This document shows positions 11,321 to 63,609 of a stretch of 64,000 nt of DNA, piece by piece. Position 1 is the stretch's first letter. The number at the start of each line of letters is the position of its first letter. The notes beneath the pieces were generated by a model, which saw only the letters and a program-made list of their open reading frames with translations, did no database searches and had not been told where the DNA came from. The DNA is from Calothrix sp. NIES-4105. GTDB lineage: Bacteria > Cyanobacteriota > Cyanobacteriia > Cyanobacteriales > Nostocaceae. A program made the position numbers and the translations under genes. The DNA lies in assembly GCF_002368415.1 (NCBI RefSeq), contig NZ_AP018290.1:10407717-10471716 (forward strand), written 5' to 3'.

Positions 11321-11900
11321 GTGTGTAGGGTGGGTGAAAGCTATAATAATCAAGCACTTGGAACGCAAGATCAAGTGCTTTCACCCACCATCAACCGTAT
11401 GGTACTTGCACTTTCTCCCACCATTAACCGTATGGTATTCGCACTTTCTGGTGGTGCGTGATGCCACCAGATACTCGCGAGTGCAAGATCAAGTGCTTTC
11501 TCCCACCATCAACCGTATGGTATTCGCACTTTCTGGTGGTGCGTGACGCTACCAGATACTCGCGAGTGCAAGATCAAGTGCTTTCTCCCACCATCAACCG
11601 TATGGTATTCGCACTTTCTGGTGGTGCGTGACGCTACCAGATACTCGCGAGTGCAAGATCAAGTGCTTTCAACCACCATCAACCGTATGGTATTCGCACT
11701 TTCTGGTGGTGCGTGATGCCACCAGATACTCGCGAGTGCAAGATCAAGTGCTTTCTCCCACCATCAACCGTATGGTATTCGCACTTTCTGGTGGTGCGTG
11801 ACGCTACCAGATACTCGCGAGTGCAAGATCAAGCATCTGGTGGTGCGTGACGCTACCAGATACTCGCTTTGTTTAAGAATTGTTGATAGCGTCACGCACC
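11321..11900. repeat. Tandem repeat of 85 bp units
   Basis: The word GCAAGATCAAG starts at 11365, 11483, 11568, 11653, 11738 and 11823; the last four spacings are exactly 85 bp. Each unit contains ACCATCAACCGTATGGT, TCTGGTGGTGCGTGACGCTA, ACCAGA and ACTCGCGAGT, so TCTGGT/ACCAGA and the flanking GCAC/GTGC can pair into a hairpin. Partial units flank the array, and the end nearest pgk becomes a member of the GCGTCACGCACCCTAC family. Short frames inside it are repeat artefacts. Confidence 0.92.
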
Positions 11901-11904
11901 CTAC

Positions 11905-13107
11905 TTATGCTTCATTGAGCGCTGCGATACCGGGTAGTACTTTACCTTCGAGTAATTCTAAGCTGGCGCCTCCACCAGTAGAGATATGGCTCATTTGGTC
12001 AGCTAAACCAACTTTCTCGACAGCAGCAACTGAGTCACCACCACCAATAATAGTGATGGCGCCATTTTTGCTGATATCAGCGAGGGTATGGGCAATAGCT
12101 TCAGTACCAACAGCGAATTTATCGAATTCAAATACACCCATTGGACCGTTCCAAATTACAGTCTTACAGTCAGCAAGTGCTTCTTGGAAGACTTTTACGG
12201 AGTCGGGACCAATATCCAAACCCATCCAGCCATCGGGAATATTATCGACGCTGACGGTTTGGGAGTTTGCATCTTTATCGAATTTGTCTGCAACAACTAC
12301 GTCGGTAGGTAGCAGGAAAGTTACACCTTTTTCTTTGGCTTTAGCTTCGAGAGAACGCGCGAGTTCAATTTTGTCGTCTTCAACCAGTGAACTACCTACG
12401 CTCATACCACGAGCTTTGTAGAATGTGAAAATCATCCCACCACCGATGATGAGCTTGTCACATTTTTCTAACAAAGTTTCGATAACGCCTATTTTGCTCG
12501 ATACTTTAGAACCACCTATAATAGCAGCCAAGGGACGCTGAGGATTTGCAATTGCATTTTCTAAGTATTGCAATTCCTTTTCAATCAAGTATCCAGCAAC
12601 CGAGGGGCTAAGATACTTGGTTACACCTTCAGTCGAAGCATGGGCGCGGTGCGCTGTACCAAATGCGTCGTTTACGTATAAATCAGCGTTTGCTGCCAAT
12701 TTTTGGGCAAATTCGGAATCATTCTTTTCTTCTTCTTTGTAGAAGCGAACGTTTTCAAGTAACAGTACTTGCCCGTTTTGCAGTGAACCAACTTTGGCGC
12801 CGACTTCATCACCAATACAATCATCGCATTTAACGACTTCTTGCCCTAGTAACTCAGATAAGCGCTTGGCAACTGGAGTTAGACGCAACTTGTCATCAAC
12901 ACCCTTTGGACGACCGAAGTGACTAGCAAGGATTACCTTAGCACCCTTACCAGACAAATCTTGAATCGTAGGTAGTGCCGCACGGATACGTGTATCGTCC
13001 GTGATATTGCCCGCATCATCCAGGGGCACATTGAAATCTACCCGTACAAATGCTCGTTTACCAGACAAGTCAGATGCAGATAAATTTGCTAAAGATTTCT
13101 TCGACAC
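11905..13107 (-). CDS. pgk: Phosphoglycerate kinase
   Basis: Transfers phosphate between 1,3-bisphosphoglycerate and ADP in glycolysis and, reversed, in the Calvin cycle. The 400-residue protein starts [20 protein letters not shown] and has the substrate motif [11 protein letters not shown], the basic patch [21 protein letters not shown], the hinge region GGSKVSSKI and the nucleotide site [13 protein letters not shown]...STGGGASLE. Length and motifs are complete. It is preceded by AGGAGG-like sequence (CAACCTCCTG on the plus strand) and followed by the 85-bp repeat array. Confidence 0.97.
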
Positions 13108-27589: not shown

Positions 27590-27817
27590 CCCCGTAGCAC
27601 AGACGTCTCGCCTGTGCAGTCACATAATTCTCTTTACCACAGAGACGCAGAGGCACGGAGGCAAGAGAAATGAACCACGCTCGTCACAAAGGGCACAAAG
27701 GAATAATACAGAGGATGAAATTCATGCCTATCGCTACTTGGAAAACGGTGCCTAACTTTTAATTCGATTCCTAGCAAAACCATTAAAATTATAGAAATGC
27801 TAATGTTTAGCTGGGTT
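27590..27817. repeat. Interspersed repeats after the helicase
   Basis: GTAGCACAGACGTCTCGCCTGTGCAG (27594-27619), then a CCACAGAGACGCAGAG copy (27637-27668). The remainder is featureless. Confidence 0.6.
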
Positions 27818-27995
27818 ATCAGCAACAAAAACTTTAACTAAATTTTATAATACATTTGCACTGAAACGAGTAATATACACTTGTTAGGATTTTTTGGCGC
27901 CTGACGGAAAATATTCCATAGCAGTTTTTTATCTCCTTTATAATCTTTCAGTTTCTGGGCATCTTAACTATAGAGTCGTGTAGTGGTAAATAGCT
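27818..27995 (+). promoter_or_regulatory. Conserved leader, copy A
   Basis: This 178-bp stretch is repeated, with few changes, at 28350-28539 and more distantly at 29925-30146, each time ending at an ATG for MADNQP. Shared words include CAACAAAAACTTTAACTAAA, TTTATAAT(C/T)TT(C/T)CAG, TGGGCATCTTAACTATAGAG and TCGTG(C/T)AGTGGTAA. Such conservation points to promoter and translation signals that travel with the gene. Confidence 0.65.
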
Positions 27996-28094
27996 ATGGC
28001 AGACAACCAACCTAGAGATTTTGATGTAGTACTTGAAGGAGAGGCACCACCTCCTATTACGTTTTCATTCTTACTTTTACCTATCAAACTTTAG
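27996..28094 (+). pseudogene. 5' fragment of an STM4015-like gene
   Basis: Starts MADNQPRDFDVVLEGEAPPP, the N-terminus of the genes at 28540 and 30147. Similarity ends at about 28060, after roughly 22 codons, where unrelated DNA with the minus-strand gene 28084-28302 begins; the frame stops at 28094. It is the left remnant of a duplication. Confidence 0.8.
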
Positions 28095-28302
28095 AGCTTG
28101 CTATACTTACCCGAACTTCTTCTGACTCTCGTGATGCTTTGACTAAATCTTCACGAATTGCTTCTAAAAATATAGCATCATTTGCAATTTCAGATGATTC
28201 ATCCTCATTAATTTTGTCTTTTGCAAGACTTTCTTCATAAGCCTTAATTCTATAATCTAAAGCCTCAATAATAAAACGGATTGCTTTTGGTGACAATTCC
28301 AT
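28084..28302 (-). CDS. Small helical protein, 72 residues
   Basis: From the ATG at 28302 (GAGGAA about ten bases upstream): MELSPKAIRFIIEALDYRIK, then an acidic linker and NDAIFLEAIREDLVKA. It predicts two long helices. Small proteins of this sort accompany TA and nuclease genes in cyanobacteria, but I do not recognise the family. It occupies a cassette between two copies of the leader plus 5' end of the MADNQP gene. Confidence 0.6.
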   Translation of the reverse strand: MELSPKAIRFIIEALDYRIKAYEESLAKDKINEDESSEIANDAIFLEAIREDLVKASRESEEVRVSIASSKV

Positions 28303-28349
28303 AATAAATTCCTCGTTAGTTAATTCTTTCAAATAATAAATGTATAAGC

Positions 28350-28539
28350 TAGGTCAACAGCAACAAAAACTTTAACTAAATTTTATAATACATTTGCACT
28401 AAAACTGGTAATATACACTTGTGGGGATTTTTGGTGCCTGACAGAGAATATTCTATAGCTGCCTTTTATCTCCTTTATAATCTTCCAGTTTTTGGGCATC
28501 TTAACTATAGGGTATAGAGTCGTGCAGTGGTAAGTAACA
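28350..28539 (+). promoter_or_regulatory. Conserved leader, copy B
   Basis: Second copy of the leader described at 27818-27995; it differs from copy A by scattered substitutions and a small insertion (TATAGGGTATAGAG), and leads into the ATG at 28540. Confidence 0.65.
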
Positions 28540-28914
28540 ATGGCAGACAATCAACCCGAAGATTTTGATGCAGTACTTGGAGGAGAAGCGGCGCCTCCAG
28601 TTGCAGGTGTGGTATTAGGAGGATTTGAAGGGATTAAAAGTAGCCTAAAAAGTTCAAATGTAAAAGTGCGAACTGCGGCGCTTAGTAGTGCTTTAAATTA
28701 TGGTGATGCAGGTTTAGACCTGGTTATTAAAGCATTGGACGATTCGTCACCACAAGTACAGCGTTTTGCAAGACGTTTACTAAAGCGCAAAGGGGGTGTT
28801 AGAGTTAAACAAGGTTTGCTTGATTATGACCCTTTATTATATTTCACTAAGTTGGAAGATTGGAAAATAAAGGATTATGACCCTAACAACCCACTATTTT
28901 TGTATACGAACTAA
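28540..28914 (+). CDS. Stand-alone N-terminal module of the STM4015-like proteins
   Basis: This 124-residue product contains only the module: FDAVLGGEAAPPVAGVVLGG, then HEAT-like helices (VRTAALSSALNYGDAGLDLV; SSPQVQRFARRLLKRKGG) and DYDPLLYFTKLEDWKIKDYD. It ends abruptly after DPNNPLFLYTN, where the DNA switches to a Uma2-type nuclease 3' end in another frame (from about 28898). The LRR part present in the genes at 30147, 40000 and 41453 is missing. It may still be expressed, as leader and start are intact, but is best read as a truncated duplicate. Confidence 0.7.
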   Translation: MADNQPEDFDAVLGGEAAPPVAGVVLGGFEGIKSSLKSSNVKVRTAALSSALNYGDAGLDLVIKALDDSSPQVQRFARRLLKRKGGVRVKQGLLDYDPLLYFTKLEDWKIKDYDPNNPLFLYTN

Positions 28915-29099
28915 TTGACGGGGAATACGTAAAAACAACGTTTAGAGGAAATGATGTAATTGTTTCCCCTACACTTCCTGGGTTTAATATGACCGCACAA
29001 CAGATTTTTGATTTAGCTAAAAAAATCGGAAACCCTGAAGCATAACACTACGTAGAAGCGCAGGAAAAAATTCGATCTATAGCAAAACAATTAAAATAA
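28898..29099 (+). pseudogene. 3' remnant of a Uma2-like nuclease gene
   Basis: In the frame offset from the preceding gene the DNA encodes VYELIDGEYVKTTFRGNDVI, VSPTLPGFNMTAQQIFDLAK, a TAA, then HYVEAQEKIRSIAKQLK. This resembles the C-terminal end of Uma2-family (DUF820) restriction-endonuclease-like proteins. No N-terminal half is present. Confidence 0.6.
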
Positions 29100-29171
29100 T
29101 AGAAATACTTATGTTTTAGTAAAAGCTGTGATTATTAACACATTGCTTTTTTAGGCATTTGTTAAATAATT

Positions 29172-29559
29172 TTACCTCCGATATTCTTGAACAATAAAAA
29201 TTTGCTGACTAGATTTTGGCTGATTCTGTTTTTTAATCCTGATAAAGCGGTTAGAAAGGTTGATATCTTCTTTAAGATATGCATCAAGAGTATTTGTCTG
29301 TTCAACATAGTCCCTATCATCTTTGCAAATAATTATACCAGCGTGGTTAATATTACTACGGTGTAAGCGAATAAAGTCGTCACGGTTTAGGGTTATAACA
29401 ATACGATTTTGTTGGGTTGCAAAGATTAAAACTTCTTCATCTGGGATACGCTGATTTGCTTGTCCTGCTTCATAAGAAGTCAAAACATTGTGCCCTTTTT
29501 GACGAAGGATTGTAACAATATCAAAGGGAAAGTTTTCGTGTTCAGTAGAGGTTAGCCAT
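29172..29559 (-). pseudogene. DUF5615 toxin broken by a frameshift
   Basis: From the ATG at 29559, which overlaps the antitoxin stop as TAATG, the complement reads MANLY then TGA. One base later the frame continues EHENFPFDIVTILRQKGHNV followed by LTSYEAGQANQRIPDEEVLI and IVITLNRDDFIRLHR, a DUF5615 protein like the one at 15026. A one-base insertion (or two-base loss) after codon 5 thus disables the toxin, while its DUF433 partner is intact. Confidence 0.82.
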
Positions 29560-29876
29560 TAGTTATCATCTTCTTGGTAGGAGGTTATAATACTATTAAT
29601 TTCATCTTGGTGACGATTGTAATAAGCCCAGGCACTATTTAAATCTTCAAGTGTTAAACCAGGGAAATTACGGAGCAACTCTGTATTGTCGGCTCCTTGT
29701 TGATGAAAGGATACTAATGTCCAAACGGGTATTCGAGTACTACGAATACACGCATGACCTCCGCAAACACCAGGGGTTTTCTGTATGGCACTAAGTTTTT
29801 CTTGAAGAAGGACAGTTTCTTCAGGACTGAGAGATTCAATGATGTGAATAAGCGAGTCAATAAGTTTGGTATTCAT
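29559..29876 (-). CDS. DUF433 antitoxin candidate
   Basis: A 105-residue paralogue of the gene at 15365: helical N-terminus (LIDSLIHIIESLSPEETVLL), then QKTPGVCGGHACIRSTRIPV and LLRNFPGLTLEDLNSAWAYY. Intact, although its toxin neighbour is frameshifted. The pair sits in a minus-strand cassette between two copies of the MADNQP gene. Confidence 0.85.
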   Translation of the reverse strand: MNTKLIDSLIHIIESLSPEETVLLQEKLSAIQKTPGVCGGHACIRSTRIPVWTLVSFHQQGADNTELLRNFPGLTLEDLNSAWAYYNRHQDEINSIITSYQEDDN

Positions 29877-29924
29877 TTAAAACAGAAGTGGATAAAACGT
29901 TACAACAGCTAATGTACAAGCTAA

Positions 29925-30146
29925 ATCATCACTAACAAAAACTTTAAATAAATTTTATAATTCACGTTTACTGCTGATTATAATATAAATTTATCGAGAT
30001 AATATTGATTTTGGTGCCCAGAGTTTGGTTCTCGTTACTGTGCCCTTTATGAATAAATTCTAAAATTGTTTGTCTTTTTTGTTTCCTTTATAATTTTCTA
30101 GTTTTTTGGGCATTTTAATTATAGAGTCGTGCAGTGGTAAGTAACA
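29925..30146 (+). promoter_or_regulatory. Conserved leader, copy C
   Basis: A more diverged copy of the leader at 27818 and 28350. The last 50 bases (GGGCATTTTAATTATAGAGT, CGTGCAGTGGTAAGTAACA) are almost identical to copy B, while the middle has changed and lengthened. Confidence 0.6.
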
Positions 30147-31370
30147 ATGGCAGACAATCAACCTAGAGATTTTGACATGGTGCTTGGAGGTGAAGCGGCG
30201 CCTCCAGTTACTGGTATAGTATTAGGAGGGCTAGAAGGAGTTAAAAGTCGGTTAAATAGTTCAATTGCGAACGTTCAAACAGCAGCACTCTGTGATGCTC
30301 TAAATTATGGAGATGCGGGTTTAGATTTGGTAATTGAAACCTTGCCAAATTTTTCACGGCAAGTGCAGCGTTTTGCGAAGAGATTGTTGAAGCAGGAAGG
30401 AGGAGCGCAAGGAAAACAAGCGTTACTTGATTATAACCCAATGTTGTTTTTCACAAAATTGGAAGACTGGGACGTAAAACAATTTGACCCTAATGCTGAT
30501 ATAGTAAGCCCTTCTGAAAAAGCTTATAGTGTAAATTTAGAAAAATTGAAATTATTTTTCAATAGTAAAAATATTTATAAAATTGAAGCTTTAATATGCC
30601 ATCTACCTGAGAATTATAGCTATAAAGTTTCCGGATTTTATGACTTTATTAATCTTCTTGCTGATAATTGCCAAAATTTGATTAACCTTAAAGCTTTATT
30701 CATTGGCGACGAAAGAGAAAATCAATATAGGAAATCTCGTGTTCGTATTGGTGATATCAATTTAATATTGGAAAGTTGTCCAAACCTGGAAGTTTTGCAA
30801 ATACGTGGTTACTGTGACGAACTAGAATGTAGCGTATTACGACATGATAATTTAAAAACACTGATTATCGAAACTGCTAGTATTAGTGACATTGCTGTTG
30901 AGATGATGTGTTCACTTAATCTACCAGCATTAGAATATTTTGAGCTATGGATGGGTAGTAAATATAAACTGAATTTAAGTAAAGTTATTAAGAATATAAA
31001 ACCAGTTCTTTTTAGTGAATCCTTTCCAAATCTTAGGTATTTAGGGATACGCAGTTGTGAGTATGCAGATGAAATAGCTGCTGCTATTGCTCAATCTTAT
31101 TTTATCGCTGAATCTCCTATTGTTGATAACCTAAGTGTACTGGATTTATCTATGGGAAATCTAACGGATGAGGGTTTAAAGGTTTTACTTGATTGTCCTG
31201 CAATCCAAAATTTACACACTCTTAATATCTCTAACAATTGTGTATCTGAAGAATTTTTTGAGCAAATGGAACAGCTATCACCACCTGATTGCCTGTTAAT
31301 TAAAGATTTTCAGGAACCCATTATTCAGAGAAATGTTGGTATATCACGTTACTATGCGTTGTATGAGTAG
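30147..31370 (+). CDS. STM4015-like leucine-rich-repeat protein with N-terminal HEAT-like module
   Basis: A 407-residue protein. Residues 1-110 form the module FDMVLGGEAAPPVTGIVLGG plus HEAT-like helices. From about 125 it follows the STM4015 family: NLKALFIGDERENQY, LILESCPNLEVLQIRGYCDE, LRHDNLKTLIIETASIS, LNLPALEYFELWMGS, SFPNLRYLGIRSCEYADEIA, LSVLDLSMGNLTDEGLKVLL and LHTLNISNNCVSEE, i.e. leucine-rich repeats. The STM4014-like gene follows after 20 bp, as in known STM4011-4015 clusters. It has relatives at 40000 and 41453. The biochemical role is unknown. Confidence 0.85.
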   Translation: MADNQPRDFDMVLGGEAAPPVTGIVLGGLEGVKSRLNSSIANVQTAALCDALNYGDAGLDLVIETLPNFSRQVQRFAKRLLKQEGGAQGKQALLDYNPMLFFTKLEDWDVKQFDPNADIVSPSEKAYSVNLEKLKLFFNSKNIYKIEALICHLPENYSYKVSGFYDFINLLADNCQNLINLKALFIGDERENQYRKSRVRIGDINLILESCPNLEVLQIRGYCDELECSVLRHDNLKTLIIETASISDIAVEMMCSLNLPALEYFELWMGSKYKLNLSKVIKNIKPVLFSESFPNLRYLGIRSCEYADEIAAAIAQSYFIAESPIVDNLSVLDLSMGNLTDEGLKVLLDCPAIQNLHTLNISNNCVSEEFFEQMEQLSPPDCLLIKDFQEPIIQRNVGISRYYALYE

Positions 31371-31390
31371 GGCAGGAAGGATAATAAACA

Positions 31391-32563
31391 ATGCTAAACT
31401 TTATCGCTATTGCAAATCCTGAAAACAGGCGCCTCGGTTTCCTACAACAAGCGCTCTCCCATTTCAACTTACCACCTGCTACGGTTATTCCTTACGCTGA
31501 CTTAATTGCAGGCAAACAAACCCTAGAACAATTCAAGGCGCCTAATACTATCATCCGCTTTGACTCTCCTGAAAGAGACTTTGATATTGATAAAGCTATT
31601 ATTGCCGAAGGTTTTACCGTACCTGATGAGGGACAGCACCAGCGTATAAGTCCTGCTGAAGTCGTAAAATTAGAGTTTGATAAAGGACGTATTTGTTATC
31701 CTCGTCAATGGTATTTAGGCTGGCGCCATCTTTTACAACAATGGTTACAGCAACTTCCAGTCTCCCTATCCGTTGACGGGGAGGGGTTAGGGATGAGGTT
31801 CATGAACCACCCCGAAGACATCGCTGTAATGTTTGACAAACCAGCATGTCACGAAAAATTCCGGTGCCATAATATTCCCGTTCCCCGTTCGCTTGGTAAG
31901 ATTTACAGCTACGACCATTTACGCGAACAAATGGAAAAACAGGAGATAGACCGAGTATTCGTCAAACTTTCCCACGCTTCCGCTGCTTCTGGAGTTGTAG
32001 CGTATCAAGCAAATTCAAAGTTTGAGTCAGCTATAACCACCGTTGAACGAGTGCGGGAAAACGGGGAAACCTTACTATATAATTCGCGTAAAATTCGTAA
32101 CTATACCCGTAGAGAAGAAATTGCCGATATTATCAATATATTAACTGCGGAAGGTGTACAGGTCGAAGAATGGCTACCCAAAGCGCGCTTACAGGGATGT
32201 GGTTTTGATGTACGTGTAGTAGTTATTAACGGTGAAGCGCAGCATATAGTTGTCAGGTTAGGCAAAAGTCCAATGACGAATTTACACCTGGGTAATGAAA
32301 GAGGTAATAGTGAGGAATTAATAGAAAAAGTCGGCGCCGAAAATTGGGAAGCGATGAAATATACTTGTGAGCAAGCAGCAAAGTTATTTCCTAGAAGTTT
32401 ATACTGTGGCGTTGATTTATTGATTCTACCTGATTGGAAACAACACGCGATTTTAGAAATTAACGCTTTCGGCGATTTGTTACCAGGTATTTTATGGAAC
32501 GATATGGACACTTATACTAGCGAGGTCAAGGCAATATTGGAAAGGAATATAAAAGAGGGTTAA
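31391..32563 (+). CDS. STM4014 family ATP-grasp protein
   Basis: A 390-residue protein. N-terminal LNFIAIANPENRRLGFLQQA and VIPYADLIAG match the STM4014 family. The central and C-terminal part has ATP-grasp features: VFVKLSHASAASGVVAYQ (nucleotide-binding lysine), GCGFDVRVVVINGEAQHIVV (compare RimK-like DVR-V--G) and YCGVDLLILP...AILEINAFGDLLPG (Asp and Glu/Asn for Mg-ATP). It is probably a ligase or phosphotransferase. It is the second gene of the plus-strand operon with the LRR gene. Its last 260 bp are duplicated at 33389-33650, beyond a minus-strand HNH cassette. Confidence 0.86.
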   Translation: MLNFIAIANPENRRLGFLQQALSHFNLPPATVIPYADLIAGKQTLEQFKAPNTIIRFDSPERDFDIDKAIIAEGFTVPDEGQHQRISPAEVVKLEFDKGRICYPRQWYLGWRHLLQQWLQQLPVSLSVDGEGLGMRFMNHPEDIAVMFDKPACHEKFRCHNIPVPRSLGKIYSYDHLREQMEKQEIDRVFVKLSHASAASGVVAYQANSKFESAITTVERVRENGETLLYNSRKIRNYTRREEIADIINILTAEGVQVEEWLPKARLQGCGFDVRVVVINGEAQHIVVRLGKSPMTNLHLGNERGNSEELIEKVGAENWEAMKYTCEQAAKLFPRSLYCGVDLLILPDWKQHAILEINAFGDLLPGILWNDMDTYTSEVKAILERNIKEG

Positions 32564-32581
32564 TTACCACACGTTATCTTT

Positions 32582-32983
32582 TCATGGAAATAAACCCAAA
32601 CTAATCCAAAACTGTCGTGCCATTATTTGTGAGTGGCTGTTCATCTCCAAACAATCAACAGTTCCGGCACCAATTTCTGTTAAAGCAATAATTGTGCCAA
32701 ATGTAATGTTCGCTTGAAAATGGTTCTCCCATTCATCAAGTCTAGGGTGGAATAAACGAATTTCCGTGCCAGTATTAGGGTCAATTCCAGATATACGGTT
32801 CCCTTTATGAAGATTGCATGAGCGACAAGCAAGAGCCAAATTGTCTAATGTTTCTGCACCTTGCCTGCTTACTGGTCGAATATGTTCCACTTCAAAGGAA
32901 AAATTAAATATAATTTCAGGAGCGCGACAATATTCACAGCGATGATTGGCTCTATTTGCTACTAATGTATAATTTGGATTCAT
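32582..32983 (-). CDS. HNH endonuclease
   Basis: A 133-residue nuclease of the McrA/HNH type: zinc pair CEYC, EVEHIRPVSRQGAETLDNLA, then CRSCNLHKGNRISGIDPNTG. The catalytic His lies in VEHIRP, and both CxxC zinc clusters are present. The stop-start region overlaps the upstream gene by 4 bp. Stand-alone HNH genes of this kind are common in cyanobacteria and often mobile. It is part of a cassette bounded by a duplicated STM4014 3' end. Confidence 0.9.
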   Translation of the reverse strand: MNPNYTLVANRANHRCEYCRAPEIIFNFSFEVEHIRPVSRQGAETLDNLALACRSCNLHKGNRISGIDPNTGTEIRLFHPRLDEWENHFQANITFGTIIALTEIGAGTVDCLEMNSHSQIMARQFWISLGLFP

Positions 32984-33342
32984 TCACTTTGTTGTTGCAT
33001 TAAAAACTTTGCTCTTTTAGCTGTTGCGTTTAGTTCAGCCTCCACCAAGCTATCTAATTCTGCTTGTAATTCTTTTGGAAACAACTTTTCTTCGTCGCGC
33101 GCTTTACGCCATAATTCCATTAATTCAGATAAGCGTTTTTGCTGTTCGGCGCCAAAAAATCGGTCAGGACGGAAACTTTGCAGTACAAGTACCCCGTTAA
33201 ACTCGGCTTCGCCCAATTGAGTTGTTAAACCATCCAAAGCTTGACCAGCAGTTTTACCTATTGACTGCTTGTCACCAGCTACCGCACGATAACACCTCTG
33301 CCCTGAAGCATCCTGTATAGATTGTATAGCTACTGTAGTCAT
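32980..33342 (-). CDS. Partner protein of the HNH nuclease
   Basis: A 120-residue protein (AIQSIQDASGQRCYRAVAGD, GKTAGQALDGLTTQLGEAEF, then a basic helical C-terminus with LWRKARDEEKLFPKELQAEL). It precedes the HNH gene with a 4-bp overlap, so the two are co-translated. I have seen similar proteins next to HNH genes in cyanobacteria, where a regulatory or inhibitory role is a reasonable guess, but no domain is recognised. Confidence 0.72.
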   Translation of the reverse strand: MTTVAIQSIQDASGQRCYRAVAGDKQSIGKTAGQALDGLTTQLGEAEFNGVLVLQSFRPDRFFGAEQQKRLSELMELWRKARDEEKLFPKELQAELDSLVEAELNATAKRAKFLMQQQSE

Positions 33343-33388
33343 GTTTTTTCCTCAAGCTATTTCAATTATATATTTTACGCAAAACCAA

Positions 33389-33650
33389 AGGTAATAGCGA
33401 GAAATTATTAGAAAAAGTAGGCGCCGAAAATTGGGAAGCGATGAAGTACACTTGTGAGCAAGCAGCAAAGTTATTTCCTAGGAGTTTATACTGTGGCGTT
33501 GATTTATTGATTCTACCTGATTGGAAACAACACGCGATTTTAGAAATTAACGCTTTCGGTGATTTGTTACCAGGTATTTTATGGAATGGTATGGATACTT
33601 ATACAAGTGAGGTCAAGGCAATGTTGGAGACGGTAAAACAGTATTTATAA
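33389..33650 (+). pseudogene. Duplicated 3' end of the STM4014 gene
   Basis: Aligns without gaps to 32305-32563 (GGCGCCGAAAATTGGGAAGC...) with a few percent mismatches, and ends in its own stop. It lacks any start or 5' part. The HNH cassette lies exactly between the two copies. Confidence 0.9.
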
Positions 33651-33699
33651 ACACCTAATTATATAAAAAAATTTTTATTTTTAATCTATAAATGCCATT

Positions 33700-33982
33700 A
33701 TGCGAATCATTGCTCGTAGCACTTTACGTTATTTTTGGAAAACTCATCCTGATGCCGAACAATCACTAAAAACCTGGAAATTTCCGGACGACAATGTATT
33801 AAAGCATTAGAGAAAATAGGTTTTTACCAAAAACGTAGAGAAAGCAGTCACGTAATTATGAGGCGAGATAATCCATTTGCTCAAATTGTTGTCCCAGACC
33901 ACGATGAGTTGCTACAGGTACTCTACGTGCAATTATTAGAGATAGCGATTTGAGTGTAGATGAATTTATAGATTTGCTATAG
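33700..33982 (+). pseudogene. Fused relics of higB and hicA
   Basis: 33700-33780 encodes MRIIARSTLRYFWKTHPDAE, QSLKTWK, the start of a HigB toxin. It runs into ISGRQCIKALEKIGFYQKRR, SSHVIMRRDNPFAQIVVPDH, a HicA toxin lacking its first residues. A frameshift near 33918 then separates GTLRAIIRDSDLSVDEFIDL, which is the HicA C-terminus. Two dead toxins have thus been joined. The 3' end overlaps the GntR-like gene. Confidence 0.8.
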
Positions 33983-34967
33983 CTAGTTGAATTGCTGATA
34001 AGCGTGTTTTTAATACTAACAGATTTCTTTCATCAATACTAAAATTAAAAACCATTACTTTCTCTCGTATTGAACTATACTGATTTATAAAACTATTAGC
34101 TGCTTTAGAAACACAAACTACATCAGCTTCTTCTACAATTTTGGGAGTTTGCTTTATATTCTCCAGCGCTAAAGTTATATATTTAACATGATAAAGATAA
34201 GCCTGCTTTAACATCTTTTTCATTTCTTCGCACTCGCTCTGCTGTTGACCAACAAGTAATACTAAAGCATTACGGGGTTTTAATGCAAGAAAAGTCAGAA
34301 GTTTTACGTCTGGCTTAATATCAACCTTATTTATTTCTTGTTCAGGAGTAGCCAATTTATTTATTTCTGGCATGTGCTGCCCTGTTGTAATTACAAGGTC
34401 AGCATCTAACAATTGTTCCAAAGGTTTTGGTTGACCTGCTCTTAAATCTTCTAAACTCAGGAATGGTAAATCTTGTTTTATTTCTGATTTAATCGCTTCA
34501 TATGCAAATGCTTTATTGTGTAAGTAATCGATAAATACTAGTTTCAATGCCTTACTACCGTGTTGACTTAACATAACTGCTTGTGCATAAGCCGCTCCGG
34601 CAAATTCAGATGAGGATAATCCTGCTACTGTGGCAACGTTAAAAGCTTTACCCAAAAGATTATATAATTCCTTAGAAGTAATAATATCTTGTACAGTTTG
34701 AGTGTTTGCAACAAAAGTTCCTTTACCTCTTTGAGCTACAAGGTACCCAGATTCTATTAAATCATTATAAACAGTTGCAATAGTGTTGTGATTTACTCCT
34801 ATATGTTTAGCTAATTGAACAACAGTCGGCAAAGCATCACCTGACCGTAGCTTTCCCATCGCTATAAGTAGTTTAATTTGTTCAGTAATCTGAGCATTAA
34901 TCGTTATTGATGCAGATGAATTAATAAATATAGGAAAACTAAGATGCACACCACCCATATTCTTCAA
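33966..34967 (-). CDS. GntR family transcriptional regulator
   Basis: A 333-residue regulator. An N-terminal winged helix of the GntR family (QITEQIKLLIAMGKLRSGDA, LPTVVQLAKHIGVNHNTIAT, VYNDLIESGYLVAQRGKGTF) is followed by a 220-residue effector domain with alternating beta-alpha units (VFIDYLHNKAFAYEAIKSEI; NALVLLVGQQQSECEEMKKM), perhaps a periplasmic-binding-like fold. It is not an FCD or UTRA domain. It is divergent from the STM4013 fragment at 35055 and lies inside the cluster, so it may control the STM genes. Confidence 0.83.
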   Translation of the reverse strand: MKNMGGVHLSFPIFINSSASITINAQITEQIKLLIAMGKLRSGDALPTVVQLAKHIGVNHNTIATVYNDLIESGYLVAQRGKGTFVANTQTVQDIITSKELYNLLGKAFNVATVAGLSSSEFAGAAYAQAVMLSQHGSKALKLVFIDYLHNKAFAYEAIKSEIKQDLPFLSLEDLRAGQPKPLEQLLDADLVITTGQHMPEINKLATPEQEINKVDIKPDVKLLTFLALKPRNALVLLVGQQQSECEEMKKMLKQAYLYHVKYITLALENIKQTPKIVEEADVVCVSKAANSFINQYSSIREKVMVFNFSIDERNLLVLKTRLSAIQLAIANL

Positions 34968-35054
34968 TCCCAGATACTAGGTTTTAAAACACTAGTTAAT
35001 TAGTATTGCCTGATTACCAGATTTAATAAACTGTCTACAGGTAGATTATCTTTA

Positions 35055-35206
35055 AATTCATATGTTTAACATGAATCAAATCGTCGGGACTCACGACATA
35101 CTATTTATCACCCTGGATACTTTGCGCTATGACGTAGCCAAGGATTTATTTACTAAAGGGCGCCTTCCTAATTTAGCCGCAGTACTAAAAGAAGTAGGTT
35201 GGGAGC
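35055..35206 (+). pseudogene. Duplicated 5' end of the STM4013 gene
   Basis: The 152 bp from TTCATATG to TTGGGAGCA match 36407-36558 closely, encoding MFNMNQIVGTHDILFITLDT and about 28 more residues. After 35206 the DNA becomes the 3' end of the minus-strand vapC gene. It is a left-hand remnant; the whole gene starts again at 36413. Confidence 0.9.
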
Positions 35207-35213
35207 ATGTTAA

Positions 35214-35621
35214 CTATATTTGGCTCCAATCTTCAATTTCTAGACCTTCAAATTTTTCAAAGTCTCTCCGATTATTAGTTATAATCACTAAATTATTTGC
35301 AATTGCGACTCCTGCAATCAGAATATCTATATCATCTACTGGTGTTCCCTTTTTTCGCAAATTGGCATAGATATCAGCAGAGAGTGTCACAGAGCGCGTA
35401 CTTAAAGGTAATATGGTATTATATGATGCAAATTCTAGGAAAGATGTAAGTTGCTTTTGTGCATCACGATGTTTCAAACCACTAAGAATTTCGTAATAAG
35501 TAATAATGCTGATATTAATTTTACCGTGTTCTCTTATATATGCCTCGAAACGCTCAACAACAAGAGTTTGATTACGAAAAAATAGTGACAATATATTTGT
35601 ATCAATCAAGGATCGTTTCAT
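35214..35621 (-). CDS. vapC: VapC PIN-domain toxin
   Basis: A 135-residue PIN ribonuclease: MKRSLIDTNILSLFFRNQ (first Asp), SIITYYEILSGLKHRD (Glu), VDDIDILIAGVAIANNLVII (acidic pair) and TNNRRDFEKFEGLEIEDW. The active-site residues are complete. It overlaps the antitoxin by 20 bp. Confidence 0.91.
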   Translation of the reverse strand: MKRSLIDTNILSLFFRNQTLVVERFEAYIREHGKINISIITYYEILSGLKHRDAQKQLTSFLEFASYNTILPLSTRSVTLSADIYANLRKKGTPVDDIDILIAGVAIANNLVIITNNRRDFEKFEGLEIEDWSQI

Positions 35622-35865
35622 TGTCTCTCCTCTTCAAAAAAGATTGCTGGCGCCGTGTAATTATTTCTTCGTTCAAATCAGCAAATACTTCATCTGGCAT
35701 TTCATTCCAACAACCAGCAAACTTCATAATTTGGTCTACTTCACCTTGAGAATTCTCGACACCTAACCGAAAAGAATGAATAAAATTATATAAATCATCA
35801 AGTTTTTCTTCTGGAATAAGATCGATTTCTGCTGCTAGTCTTGTCCGGATATTTGATGAATTCAT
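35602..35865 (-). CDS. VapB-like antitoxin
   Basis: An 87-residue protein from the ATG at 35865 (MNSSNIRTRLAAEIDLIPEE), with a helical N-terminus (KLDDLYNFIHSFRLG) and a C-terminal toxin-binding stretch (FAGCWNEMPDEVFADLNEEI, RRQQSF), typical of DUF2281-like VapB partners. The frame is open to 35895, but 35865 fits the family. The promoter region holds the palindromic direct repeat at 35887-35926. Confidence 0.82.
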   Translation of the reverse strand: MNSSNIRTRLAAEIDLIPEEKLDDLYNFIHSFRLGVENSQGEVDQIMKFAGCWNEMPDEVFADLNEEIITRRQQSFLKRRDNETILD

Positions 35866-35886
35866 AGTTACAATGTCCCAAATAAA

Positions 35887-35926
35887 CTGCACCACTCTAT
35901 TATAACAATATTGCTATATTAAGTCA
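35887..35926. promoter_or_regulatory. Operator-like repeat, copy 1
   Basis: CTGCACCACTCTATTATAAC, AATATTGCTATATTAAGTCA. Contains an almost perfect palindrome (TATAACAATATTGCTATA). It lies 22 bp upstream of vapB and recurs upstream of the XRE gene at 36327-36366. Confidence 0.7.
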
Positions 35927-35970
35927 TTAACGTTGCTTCTGTCGGTGCCTTCCTAAAATTAAGCTTTTAG

Positions 35971-36270
35971 CTATTTTTCTATTGGCTTAAGAGCAATCTC
36001 TACTTTTTGATTGAGAGCGCAAGCAATTTTTTGAAGCATAGACAAAGAGTGTCCCTCGTAATCAGCATCTTCAAGTCGTGCAATCACAGGTTGCTTAGTG
36101 CCTATTAAATCAGCAAGTTCCTTTTGTGTCAAACCTGCTTTTGTCCTAGCTTCATAAATAAGCTGCGCGACTGTTGCATTGATTGATGCTACAGCTATCA
36201 TCTCTTGAATCTCAGAATCGCCATCATTCATCTTTTCGATTATCTTAATAGCATCGCTATTCTTAGTCAT
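35971..36270 (-). CDS. XRE family regulator / HigA-like antitoxin
   Basis: A 99-residue protein with an N-terminal helical part and a classical HTH_3 (LIYEARTKAGLTQKELADLI, GTKQPVIARLEDADYEGHSL) ending in QKVEIALKP. It resembles antitoxins whose toxin is a RelE/HigB protein, but no toxin gene is adjacent. The perfect palindrome TATAACAATATTGTTATA lies 60-80 bp upstream, and a near copy precedes vapB, so this protein may control both. Confidence 0.85.
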   Translation of the reverse strand: MTKNSDAIKIIEKMNDGDSEIQEMIAVASINATVAQLIYEARTKAGLTQKELADLIGTKQPVIARLEDADYEGHSLSMLQKIACALNQKVEIALKPIEK

Positions 36271-36326
36271 TGTTTTACACTTCTACATAAGTATGAATAT
36301 CAGGATTACTTTACGTATTTCAGGCA

Positions 36327-36366
36327 CTGCACCATCCCATTATAACAATATTGTTATATTAAGTCA
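36327..36366. promoter_or_regulatory. Operator-like repeat, copy 2
   Basis: Second copy of the 40-bp repeat at 35887. Here TATAACAATATTGTTATA is a perfect 18-bp palindrome, located in the upstream region of the XRE gene and ahead of the STM4013 gene at 36413. Confidence 0.72.
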
Positions 36367-36412
36367 GTGATGCTGCGCGCTTTCGATAGCTATAAATTTC
36401 GTAATAATTCAT

Positions 36413-37243
36413 ATGTTTAACATGAATCAAATTGTCGGGACTCACGACATATTATTTATCACCCTGGATACTTTGCGCTATGACGTAGCCAAGGATTTAT
36501 TTTCCCAAAGGTGCCTTCCTAATTTAGCCGCAGTACTTCCAGAAACAGGTTGGGAGCAACGCCATTCTCCCGGTAATTTTACTTATGCTGCTCATCATGC
36601 CTTTTTCGCGGGTTTTCTCCCTACTCCTATAATCCCAGGTACTCACCCACGTCCTTTTGCTTTGGGGTTTGAAGGTAGCACTACTACGACAGAAAATACT
36701 TGTGTTTTGGAAGGCGCCAATATTGTCGAAGGGTTAGCAGTTAGAGGCTACCATACAGTTTGTATCGGTGGTGTGGGATTTTTTAATAAACTCAATCCTT
36801 TGGGTAACGTTTTGCCATCAATGTTCGCTTCTAGTCACTGGAGTCGAGAGTTAGGAGTAACAAACCCTGACTCAACAGAAAAGCAGGTAGAACTCGCGCG
36901 GCAAATTTTAGAACAAACGCCAAAAAATCAGCGCGTGTTCTTGTTTATAAACATTTCTGCCCTACATCAACCAAATTATTTTTACCTGCCTGGTGCTAAA
37001 ACAGATACTATTCAATCACACGGCGCCGCTTTGGAATATGTAGATAGTCAGCTTGGTAAACTCTGGGATGCTTTCCGACAAAGGAGTTCAACGTTTTGTA
37101 TTCTTTGCTCCGACCACGGGACAACTTATGGTGATGACGGATACACTGGACATAGGTTAAGTCATCCTGTAGTGTGGACGGTTCCCTATGCAGAGTTTAT
37201 TTTAGAAGAACGTAGGGTGTGTGACGCCTTTGAAAAAATTTGA
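36413..37243 (+). CDS. STM4013/SEN3800 family hydrolase
   Basis: A 276-residue protein of the alkaline phosphatase/sulfatase superfamily. The start MNQIVGTHDILFITLDTLRY has the metal-binding Asp of LDTLR-D, followed by FTYAAHHAFFAGFLPTP, GVGFFNKLNPLGNVLPSMF, FLFINISALHQPNYFYLPGA and SDHGTTYGDDGYTGHRLSHP (C-terminal metal site), then VVWTVPYAEFIL. The match to the family is very clear. The final residues RRVCDAFEKI are encoded by the interspersed repeat that begins near 37209. The substrate is unknown. Confidence 0.9.
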   Translation: MFNMNQIVGTHDILFITLDTLRYDVAKDLFSQRCLPNLAAVLPETGWEQRHSPGNFTYAAHHAFFAGFLPTPIIPGTHPRPFALGFEGSTTTTENTCVLEGANIVEGLAVRGYHTVCIGGVGFFNKLNPLGNVLPSMFASSHWSRELGVTNPDSTEKQVELARQILEQTPKNQRVFLFINISALHQPNYFYLPGAKTDTIQSHGAALEYVDSQLGKLWDAFRQRSSTFCILCSDHGTTYGDDGYTGHRLSHPVVWTVPYAEFILEERRVCDAFEKI

Positions 37244-63275: not shown

Positions 63276-63609
63276 TAGGGTGCGTGAAAGCTATTACAAT
63301 CCAACAATGTAACGCAAGATTAAAGTGCTTTCACGCACCATCTTAATAATTGTAACGCTGGCGCCATCTTGGGTATCATTTTCTTGTGAGGTGCATGAAG
63401 GCTACGCTTATTACTCGTTTGTGTGAGAATTGTTGGTAGCCTTCACACACCCTACCGAAGAAAGCTATTAATTAACTACAGTAACGCTGGCGCCATCTTG
63501 GGTATCATTTTCTTGTGAGGTGCGTGAAGGCTACGCTTATTACTCGTTTGTGTGAGAATTGTTGGTAGCCTTCACACACCCTACCGAAGAAAGCTGTTAA
63601 TTAACCACA
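63276..63609. repeat. 129-bp tandem duplication and inverted repeats
   Basis: GTAGGGTGCGTGAAAGCTAT...AAAGTGCTTTCACGCACC forms an inverted repeat at 63276-63340. It is followed by two nearly identical 129-bp units (63352-63480 and 63481-63609), each with a GTG(A/C)G...GTGCGTGAAGGCTA, and TAGCCTTCACACACCCTAC stem. The stop of the next gene lies in the second unit. Confidence 0.9.

Follow-up and report, generated by a model that had tools for sequence, protein, structure and literature searches.

Within a stretch of 64,000 nucleotides from the cyanobacterium Calothrix sp. NIES-4105 (the window; G000:C1:10407717-10471716, in a genome of ~12 Mb), small minus-strand gene cassettes lie between long direct repeats of one end of a plus-strand host gene, and we conclude, with a probability of roughly 60%, that two of these cassettes (cases 1 and 3 below) and probably another (case 4) are insertions with long target duplication, in which ~50-320 bp at a gene end came to stand on both sides of the insert. 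The inserts are probably selfish small gene pairs. The host genes form a cluster assigned by family profile search to the STM4015 (below the cut-off), STM4014, STM4013 and STM4012 families, and the target repeat found on both sides of the insert measures ~255, 240 and 153 bp in cases 1, 3 and 4, respectively. A sequence-only reading of the same DNA had described four such captures: the minus-strand position of the cassettes and the long direct repeats were confirmed (240 nt at 94%, 153 nt at 92% and the leader in three copies), case 1 has the appearance of an insertion, cases 3 and 4 are compatible with one but unpolarised, and case 2 turned out to belong to a tandem-paralog array.

The comparisons drew on the same-genus relatives Calothrix sp. 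PCC 7716 (G002), Dulcicalothrix desertica PCC 7102 (G003), Calothrix sp. PCC 7103 (G004) and Calothrix sp. FI2-JRJ7 (G005), on the other relatives G001 and G006, and on G028 and G008 of the same family; G000 denotes the genome of the window, and names marked "by eye" come from inspection, with no search behind them. A scan of two 400-kb stretches of G000 plus the window, 864 kb in all, yielded 51 local direct-repeat pairs (17, 27 and 7 per stretch), and five of the seven pairs in the window fall within the 9 kb of the four cases.

In case 1, an 82-aa open reading frame (ORF) on the minus strand (28084..28332) separates two plus-strand copies of the leader of gene A, a MADNQP (STM4015-like) gene. 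The first copy (27802..28060) carries the first ~60 bp of the gene and is truncated; the second (28339..28914) carries a gene A truncated to a 124-codon frame (28540-28914). Both copies were recognized as direct repeats, and the 82-aa ORF and the 124-codon frame come from the ORF list. The ends of the ORF lie ~24-30 and 7-15 bp away from the repeats. Altogether the MADNQP leader is present in three copies, starting at 27809, 28347 and 29919 and 67-91% identical in ungapped blocks, with leaders 1 and 2 being 87% alike in a gapped alignment. In D. desertica, a single leader A, 90% identical to leader 1 of the window and 87% to leader 2, is directly followed by a full-length gene A and there is no 82-aa ORF, i.e., a relative with one repeat copy and no insert exists. 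This comparison makes case 1 look like the product of an insertion in which ~255 bp were duplicated, and the downstream gene A copy has since shrunk to the 124-codon frame. The sequence-only reading held that an intact host copy remains in each case; case 1 departs from this, the intact gene at 30147 being a different paralog. The 82-aa ORF belongs to no Pfam, NCBIfam or PADLOC family and has no match at the locus stretches of G003, G004, G005, G006 and G028; at the G002 locus there is a 13-residue match only (E 0.04), and 10 further matches were found elsewhere, in six genomes.

In case 3, the intact STM4014 gene (31391..32563, plus strand; NF038074) is followed on the minus strand by a gene for an HNH endonuclease (32582..32983; PF01844, 5e-14, with PADLOC matches to PtuB-type HNH proteins) and a gene for a 120-aa partner (32980..33342), which has paralogs and no family in the Pfam, NCBIfam or PADLOC scans. 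Beyond them lies a second, plus-strand copy of the STM4014 3' end (33389..33650), so that positions 32302-32541 of the intact gene recur at 33389-33628 (240 nt, 94%). The homology of the cassette stops near 33387, a boundary also seen in G002, where the partner side stops within 1-2 bases of the window's switch into the STM4014 copy and an XRE gene comes next. The entire arrangement of STM4014, HNH gene, partner and STM4014 copy is common to the window and D. desertica (2252 bp at 94%), and in G028 STM4014 and STM4013 are adjacent. The STM4014 copies differ by 5.8% in G000 and by 8.3% in G003, about the same as between lineages, and the tree of the case 3 copies lacks resolution and gives no date for the duplication. 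As judged from these alignments, case 3 fits an insertion with long target duplication but is not polarised: a duplication at insertion with subsequent loss of the copy in relatives is possible, and so is a later duplication.

The spacer between STM4014 and STM4013 contains, in its middle, a gene for a GntR-family regulator (33966..34967, minus strand; PF00392) and, next to STM4013, case 4. Here a truncated plus-strand copy of the STM4013 5' end (35055..35207) is repeated as the 5' end of the intact gene (36413-37243; copy 2 and gene together 36406..37243, plus strand; NF038075); the direct repeat 35055-35207/36406-36558 covers 153 nt at 92%. Among 60 genomes searched, 10 have any match to STM4013 and only the window genome has a second one. 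Between the copies, on the minus strand, there are a VapC-like PIN gene (35214-35621; PF01850) and a VapB-like ORF with no Pfam match (35602-35895), together spanning 35214..35895, and a HigA-like gene (35971-36270), the XRE-type gene of the case, with weak helix-turn-helix (HTH) matches only. The HigA-like gene is itself enclosed by copies of a 51-nt segment, 35886-35936 and 36326-36376 (35886..36376 in all; repeat D7, 84%), and G002 retains ~195 bp more at this gene, with a HigB-like frame (by eye). The VapBC and XRE genes had been taken for a single cassette, a view that is abandoned here: on the evidence of G002, the XRE gene is what remains of a separate HigBA-like pair (named by eye). 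Case 4 is probably an insertion with long target duplication, with which its sequence is compatible, again unpolarised, and its repeats suggest a nested series in which VapBC would have entered first and HigBA later, beside the VapBC promoter. Nearer to STM4014, between its second copy and the GntR gene (33690-33980), there are plus-strand relics resembling fused pieces of HigB and HicA toxins (by eye).

Case 2 comprises a DUF5615 gene (29172-29483) and a DUF433 gene (29559-29876), both on the minus strand (29172..29876) and identified with Pfam. It was rejected as a capture event because its flanks are old paralogs and the cassette in G006 adjoins a single gene. The flanks are paralogs A and B, which are in tandem in D. 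desertica too. Leader 2 is closer to D. desertica leader A (87%) than to leader B (75%), and leader 3, which precedes the intact paralog B (30147-31370; with the leader 29919..31370, plus strand; STM4015 family below the cut-off), is closer to leader B (79%) than to leader A (74%). In D. desertica DUF5615/DUF433 are found upstream of gene A, and in G006 a match spans the cassette and the leader junction into the only such gene there. A segment that precedes the array (27761-27808) recurs before the case 2 cassette (29069..29116, plus strand; repeat D8, 85%), which indicates that duplications and losses have reshaped the array. STM4015-type genes occur in tandem at several places, and case 2 is, as far as these comparisons go, an old cassette within a tandem-paralog array.

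The broader claim of the sequence-only reading, that small gene pairs are captured repeatedly at gene ends with long partial duplications, is supported by the window and by independent hosts in other cyanobacteria. The HNH pair adjoins 3' end copies of three hosts, namely STM4014, a 426/478-aa gene and a CatB-like gene (by eye; 107 bp, 90%); at the second of these hosts, the pair follows the 3' end of the 478- or 426-aa gene in G002 and G004, and a 126-bp copy of that end (86-87%) comes next. A partner-profile scan of the GTDB genome collection produced 68 loci, of which 61, with both flanks, were counted; the 7/68 left out had a flank of <500 bases, and one of these, L219, had a repeat. A direct repeat across the HNH cassette was found at 10/61 loci vs 6/174 control positions taken within these loci (p 0.0015; if a shared event is entered as a single one, p 0.004); in a second comparison, 9/400 random G000 positions had a direct repeat. 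Among the loci counted as having repeats, here and for the protease family below, L207, L315 and L321 stand without closer inspection.

A second cassette family, a protease pair (named by eye; no Pfam match), behaves similarly. In G003, it follows an aldo-keto reductase (AKR, by eye) gene, and a 68-bp copy of the 3' end of this gene lies beyond the pair (~130 bp when an assumed internal deletion is taken into account). The AKR site of G004 has the same occupied structure, and in G000, G001, G002, G005 and G006 the site holds a single copy and no insert. The idea that the AKR insert had passed between G003 and G004 was considered and dropped, as the two genomes share 93-97% identity at two further core loci too. 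In G008 (L303, G008:C88), the protease pair is found beside the 5' end of a kinase gene (by eye) that is duplicated over 323 bp at 96.6%; further genes resembling toxin-antitoxin genes follow at this locus, which is the youngest example found. When 30 matches were cut out as loci, of >80 listed, repeats were present at 7/30 vs 11/400 random positions (p 7e-5, or 4e-4 with a shared event counted once); three of the seven are gene-end copies (two events), and two inspected ones are not. Repeat length varies within one family, being 107, 126 and 240 bp for the HNH pair and 68 and 323 bp for the protease pair.

In G000, the 3' end of an ABC-type gene (by eye) is present on both sides of a 79-aa gene (122 bp, 90%), and all seven relatives searched have one copy and no insert at this site. 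The 79-aa gene (L085:7536-7775 = G000:C1:1367536-1367775) has no Pfam match and is found at other places in G002, G003 and G005, i.e., it is a mobile single gene. Next to a ParB-like gene of G000 there is a PemK/MazF-type gene (Pfam), and G002-G006 (5/5) have one repeat copy and no insert; the repeat at this mazEF is a dispersed palindrome with dozens of copies. This palindromic repeat of ~100 bp (G000:C1:1310806-1310925, L082) recurs dozens of times in these genomes. At each host examined, the copy comes from the host's own end. A motif with which second copies apparently begin (AGGTAAT, noted by eye for STM4014 and AKR) was dropped as a candidate signal, as inspection did not show it in the ABC and response-regulator cases.

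Neither a transposase, in the ORF list or the family matches of the cassette ORFs, to which this search was limited, nor an integrase, among the scanned cassette ORFs, was found. The DUF5615, DUF433, HNH and PIN ORFs of the cassettes exceed Pfam cut-offs, and the HNH partner, the case 1 ORF and the VapB-like ORF match no Pfam family; the PIN, DUF433/DUF5615 and HTH genes are putative toxin-antitoxin or addiction genes by family resemblance. No methyltransferase was detected among the cassette ORFs in the Pfam, NCBIfam and PADLOC scans, so the cargo is not restriction-modification, which is usual for insertions with long target duplication but perhaps no part of their definition. The HNH and case 1 stretches lack inverted repeats. 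The case 4 stretch has five inverted-repeat pairs and the AKR insert six, internal or imperfect and not at both ends. In one of the AKR pairs (15 nt, 87%), an arm is placed at the left edge, and its counterpart is ~110 bp short of the right edge. These pairs are not read as terminal repeats, and a terminal-repeat element was rejected. Some integrases use gene ends, e.g., that of e14 at icd, so that the gene is intact on one side and its end is left over as a copy on the other. Insertion of the e14 type differs from the present cases in that an integrase is required.

We propose the following scenario for insertion with long target duplication. A small addiction-like unit would enter the DNA at a gene end or in its immediate neighborhood, with ~50-320 bp of that end present on both sides afterwards. 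The joining of a cassette copy to the target would take place in the course of repair, through template switching or at a staggered break; if the second junction falls behind the first, the intervening stretch would be present twice, giving target, insert and target, and no transposase would be needed. A second junction behind the first would account for the variable length of the repeats, the involvement of both 5' and 3' ends, the occurrence of both orientations and the lack of element functions. Insertions at gene ends would survive mainly when a working gene copy remains, the second copy then being free to decay, and addiction-like cargo would be hard to lose; owing to such selection, gene ends with a surviving copy would be what is seen. 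More tentatively, and in our judgment somewhat doubtfully, a single element-independent copy-and-insert route could bring free-standing addiction-like pairs of many unrelated families into cyanobacterial chromosomes, in each instance duplicating the end of the target gene, which would amount to mobility without any known mobile element.

Several observations weigh against insertion with long target duplication or limit its reach. Relics of the HNH gene or partner follow STM4014 without a second copy in G002, G004 and G006, and G005 has HNH/partner pieces upstream of STM4013, again without a second copy (STM4014 and STM4013 are on different contigs there). Parts of the case 4 cassette lie upstream of STM4013 without an STM4013 copy in G002 and G005, and for cases 3 and 4 there is no relative that is cleanly free of the insert and has the same sequence downstream. 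The evidence that the sequence-only reading had named as refuting it is thus present in part: relatives have DUF433/DUF5615 and HNH cassettes, or relics of these, without duplications, an appearance that subsequent loss of the second copy could also produce. Of the 10 HNH repeats, four loci (three hosts) are gene-end copies, five other inspected repeats are intergenic, short or dispersed, and three of the six positive control positions come from one locus. Moreover, in G004 another place with host and HNH pair has no copy of the gene end. In a survey of indels in three G003-G002 stretches (81 rows: 39, 35 and 7, some events occupying two rows), a repeat of at least 30 bp accompanies 7/81 rows, and at inserts read as mazEF, higBA, phd-parE and brnTA (by eye) the overlap is 0, 1 or 10 bp, or there is a gap of 3 bp instead. 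An insert of PIN type in G003 C12 (1592 bp, overlap of 79 bp) was dropped as an example, G002 having the same antitoxin-like gene nearby, and is still among the 7/81 rows. Long duplication is one outcome among several.

The same body of evidence contains features that tandem duplication followed by decay would explain. Under this explanation, which we consider unlikely for the set as a whole, a gene with or without a neighboring cassette is doubled and one copy decays to its end, the cassettes having come along or settled in the redundant copy. Case 2 and the tandem STM4015-type genes fit this course of events. So, by its sequence, does XisHI in G002, which counts against insertion: the gene-end copy that comes second is the longer one (334 bp), and behind it lies part of a second cassette, namely of a second XisI. 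AraC-type and FAD-monooxygenase fragments in G000 are likewise located on a side not expected from insertion. However, no fetched relative has a full tandem copy for ABC, AKR or case 1, sites with a single copy and no insert exist, and two steps are invoked where one suffices.

The sequence-only reading had suggested that cassettes bring flanks of host-gene sequence with them and enter the resident gene by recombination. The observed structure is the expected product of a single crossover with such pre-flanked DNA, and a divergence between copies as large as that between lineages is what foreign flanks would show. Yet STM4014 sequence was found in eight genomes at the STM locus only and beside none of the HNH pairs elsewhere, the HNH copies L057, L048 and L060 (same orientation, other loci) have only the cassette in common with the window, and the AKR copies have two differences from G002 in common with each other. 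We therefore regard this explanation as improbable; it is weakened for moves to new hosts, and an occupied allele may still spread between strains by recombination. Least probable of all is, in our view, recombination between dispersed repeats that happened to flank cassette and target. The repeat at the ParB-side mazEF, with its dozens of copies, and the repeats at several HNH loci, those of Pseudanabaena among them, which are HIP1-rich or apparently dispersed (by eye), are of this kind, but the STM4014 and STM4013 copies occur at this locus only in the genomes searched, and the AKR repeat matched its own locus only in the sequence searched.

Insertion with long target duplication is already known, the new aspects being the cargo and the nesting. 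The proposal dates from 2000 and concerned restriction-modification genes (Nobusato et al. 2000, Gene 259:99, as described in PMC1643837, PMC3031569, PMC3874152 and PMC4978471), the passages concerned establishing no mechanism; such insertion was found between two Helicobacter pylori strains, often with restriction-modification genes (PMC1643837). In the parts consulted, the literature that joins this type of insertion with toxin-antitoxin systems ties it to restriction-modification systems; a literature search combining it with cyanobacteria found no paper. As described there, the H. pylori insertions resemble those reported here in carrying addiction-type genes, in their long direct repeats of variable length (on the order of 100 bp), in the single target of a relative and in being independent of known mobile elements. 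Unlike in H. pylori, the cargo here consists of an HNH-partner pair, a protease pair, a small ORF and toxin-antitoxin-like genes rather than restriction-modification genes, the host is a cyanobacterium, the targets are often gene ends and the insertions seem nested. In the relevant passages on transposed genes of Arabidopsis, direct repeats >30 bp similarly flank moved genes and often match a single orthologous target in a relative, with the difference that a eukaryote is involved and that a model of repeat excision and recombination is discussed (PMC2869330). In the account of Streptococcus pneumoniae merodiploids formed by transformation, incoming DNA can likewise give a duplication around a cassette, but the duplications are ~100-900 kb and involve unequal crossing-over at repeats, whereas here they are 50-320 bp at the insert (PMC3784515).

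It has long been asked how toxin-antitoxin-like modules can move in the absence of a mobile element. The route tentatively suggested above, if real, would be a general means of mobility for such modules and would build nested stacks such as the STM4014-STM4013 spacer, with its duplications of 240, 153 and 51 bp in ~5 kb. The present genomes offer a useful set for addressing it, including relatives that lack an insert, two families of cassettes that each occur at several hosts and a pair of repeats that has kept 96.6% identity, and strain comparison among them can separate the models of paired breaks, template switching, pre-flanked recombination and tandem duplication with decay.

Some further features of these genomes were observed. 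G000 and G003 are 94% identical at STM4014 (window 31391-33650) but 85-89% at the ParB, ABC and AKR loci, and for G003 and G004 the identity is ~83% across the STM region as against 93-97% for ParB and ABC (L042, L123, L107 and others compared); STM cluster alleles may have been exchanged between lineages. The N-terminal ~100 residues of the MADNQP protein (30147-30450) match many other frames of ~200-250 aa in the genus, and the match is confined to these residues, which gives the impression of one N-terminal domain common to many different proteins. Elsewhere in the window there are an 85-bp tandem repeat with five register copies (11411-11918) and a 129-bp tandem pair (63343-63600).

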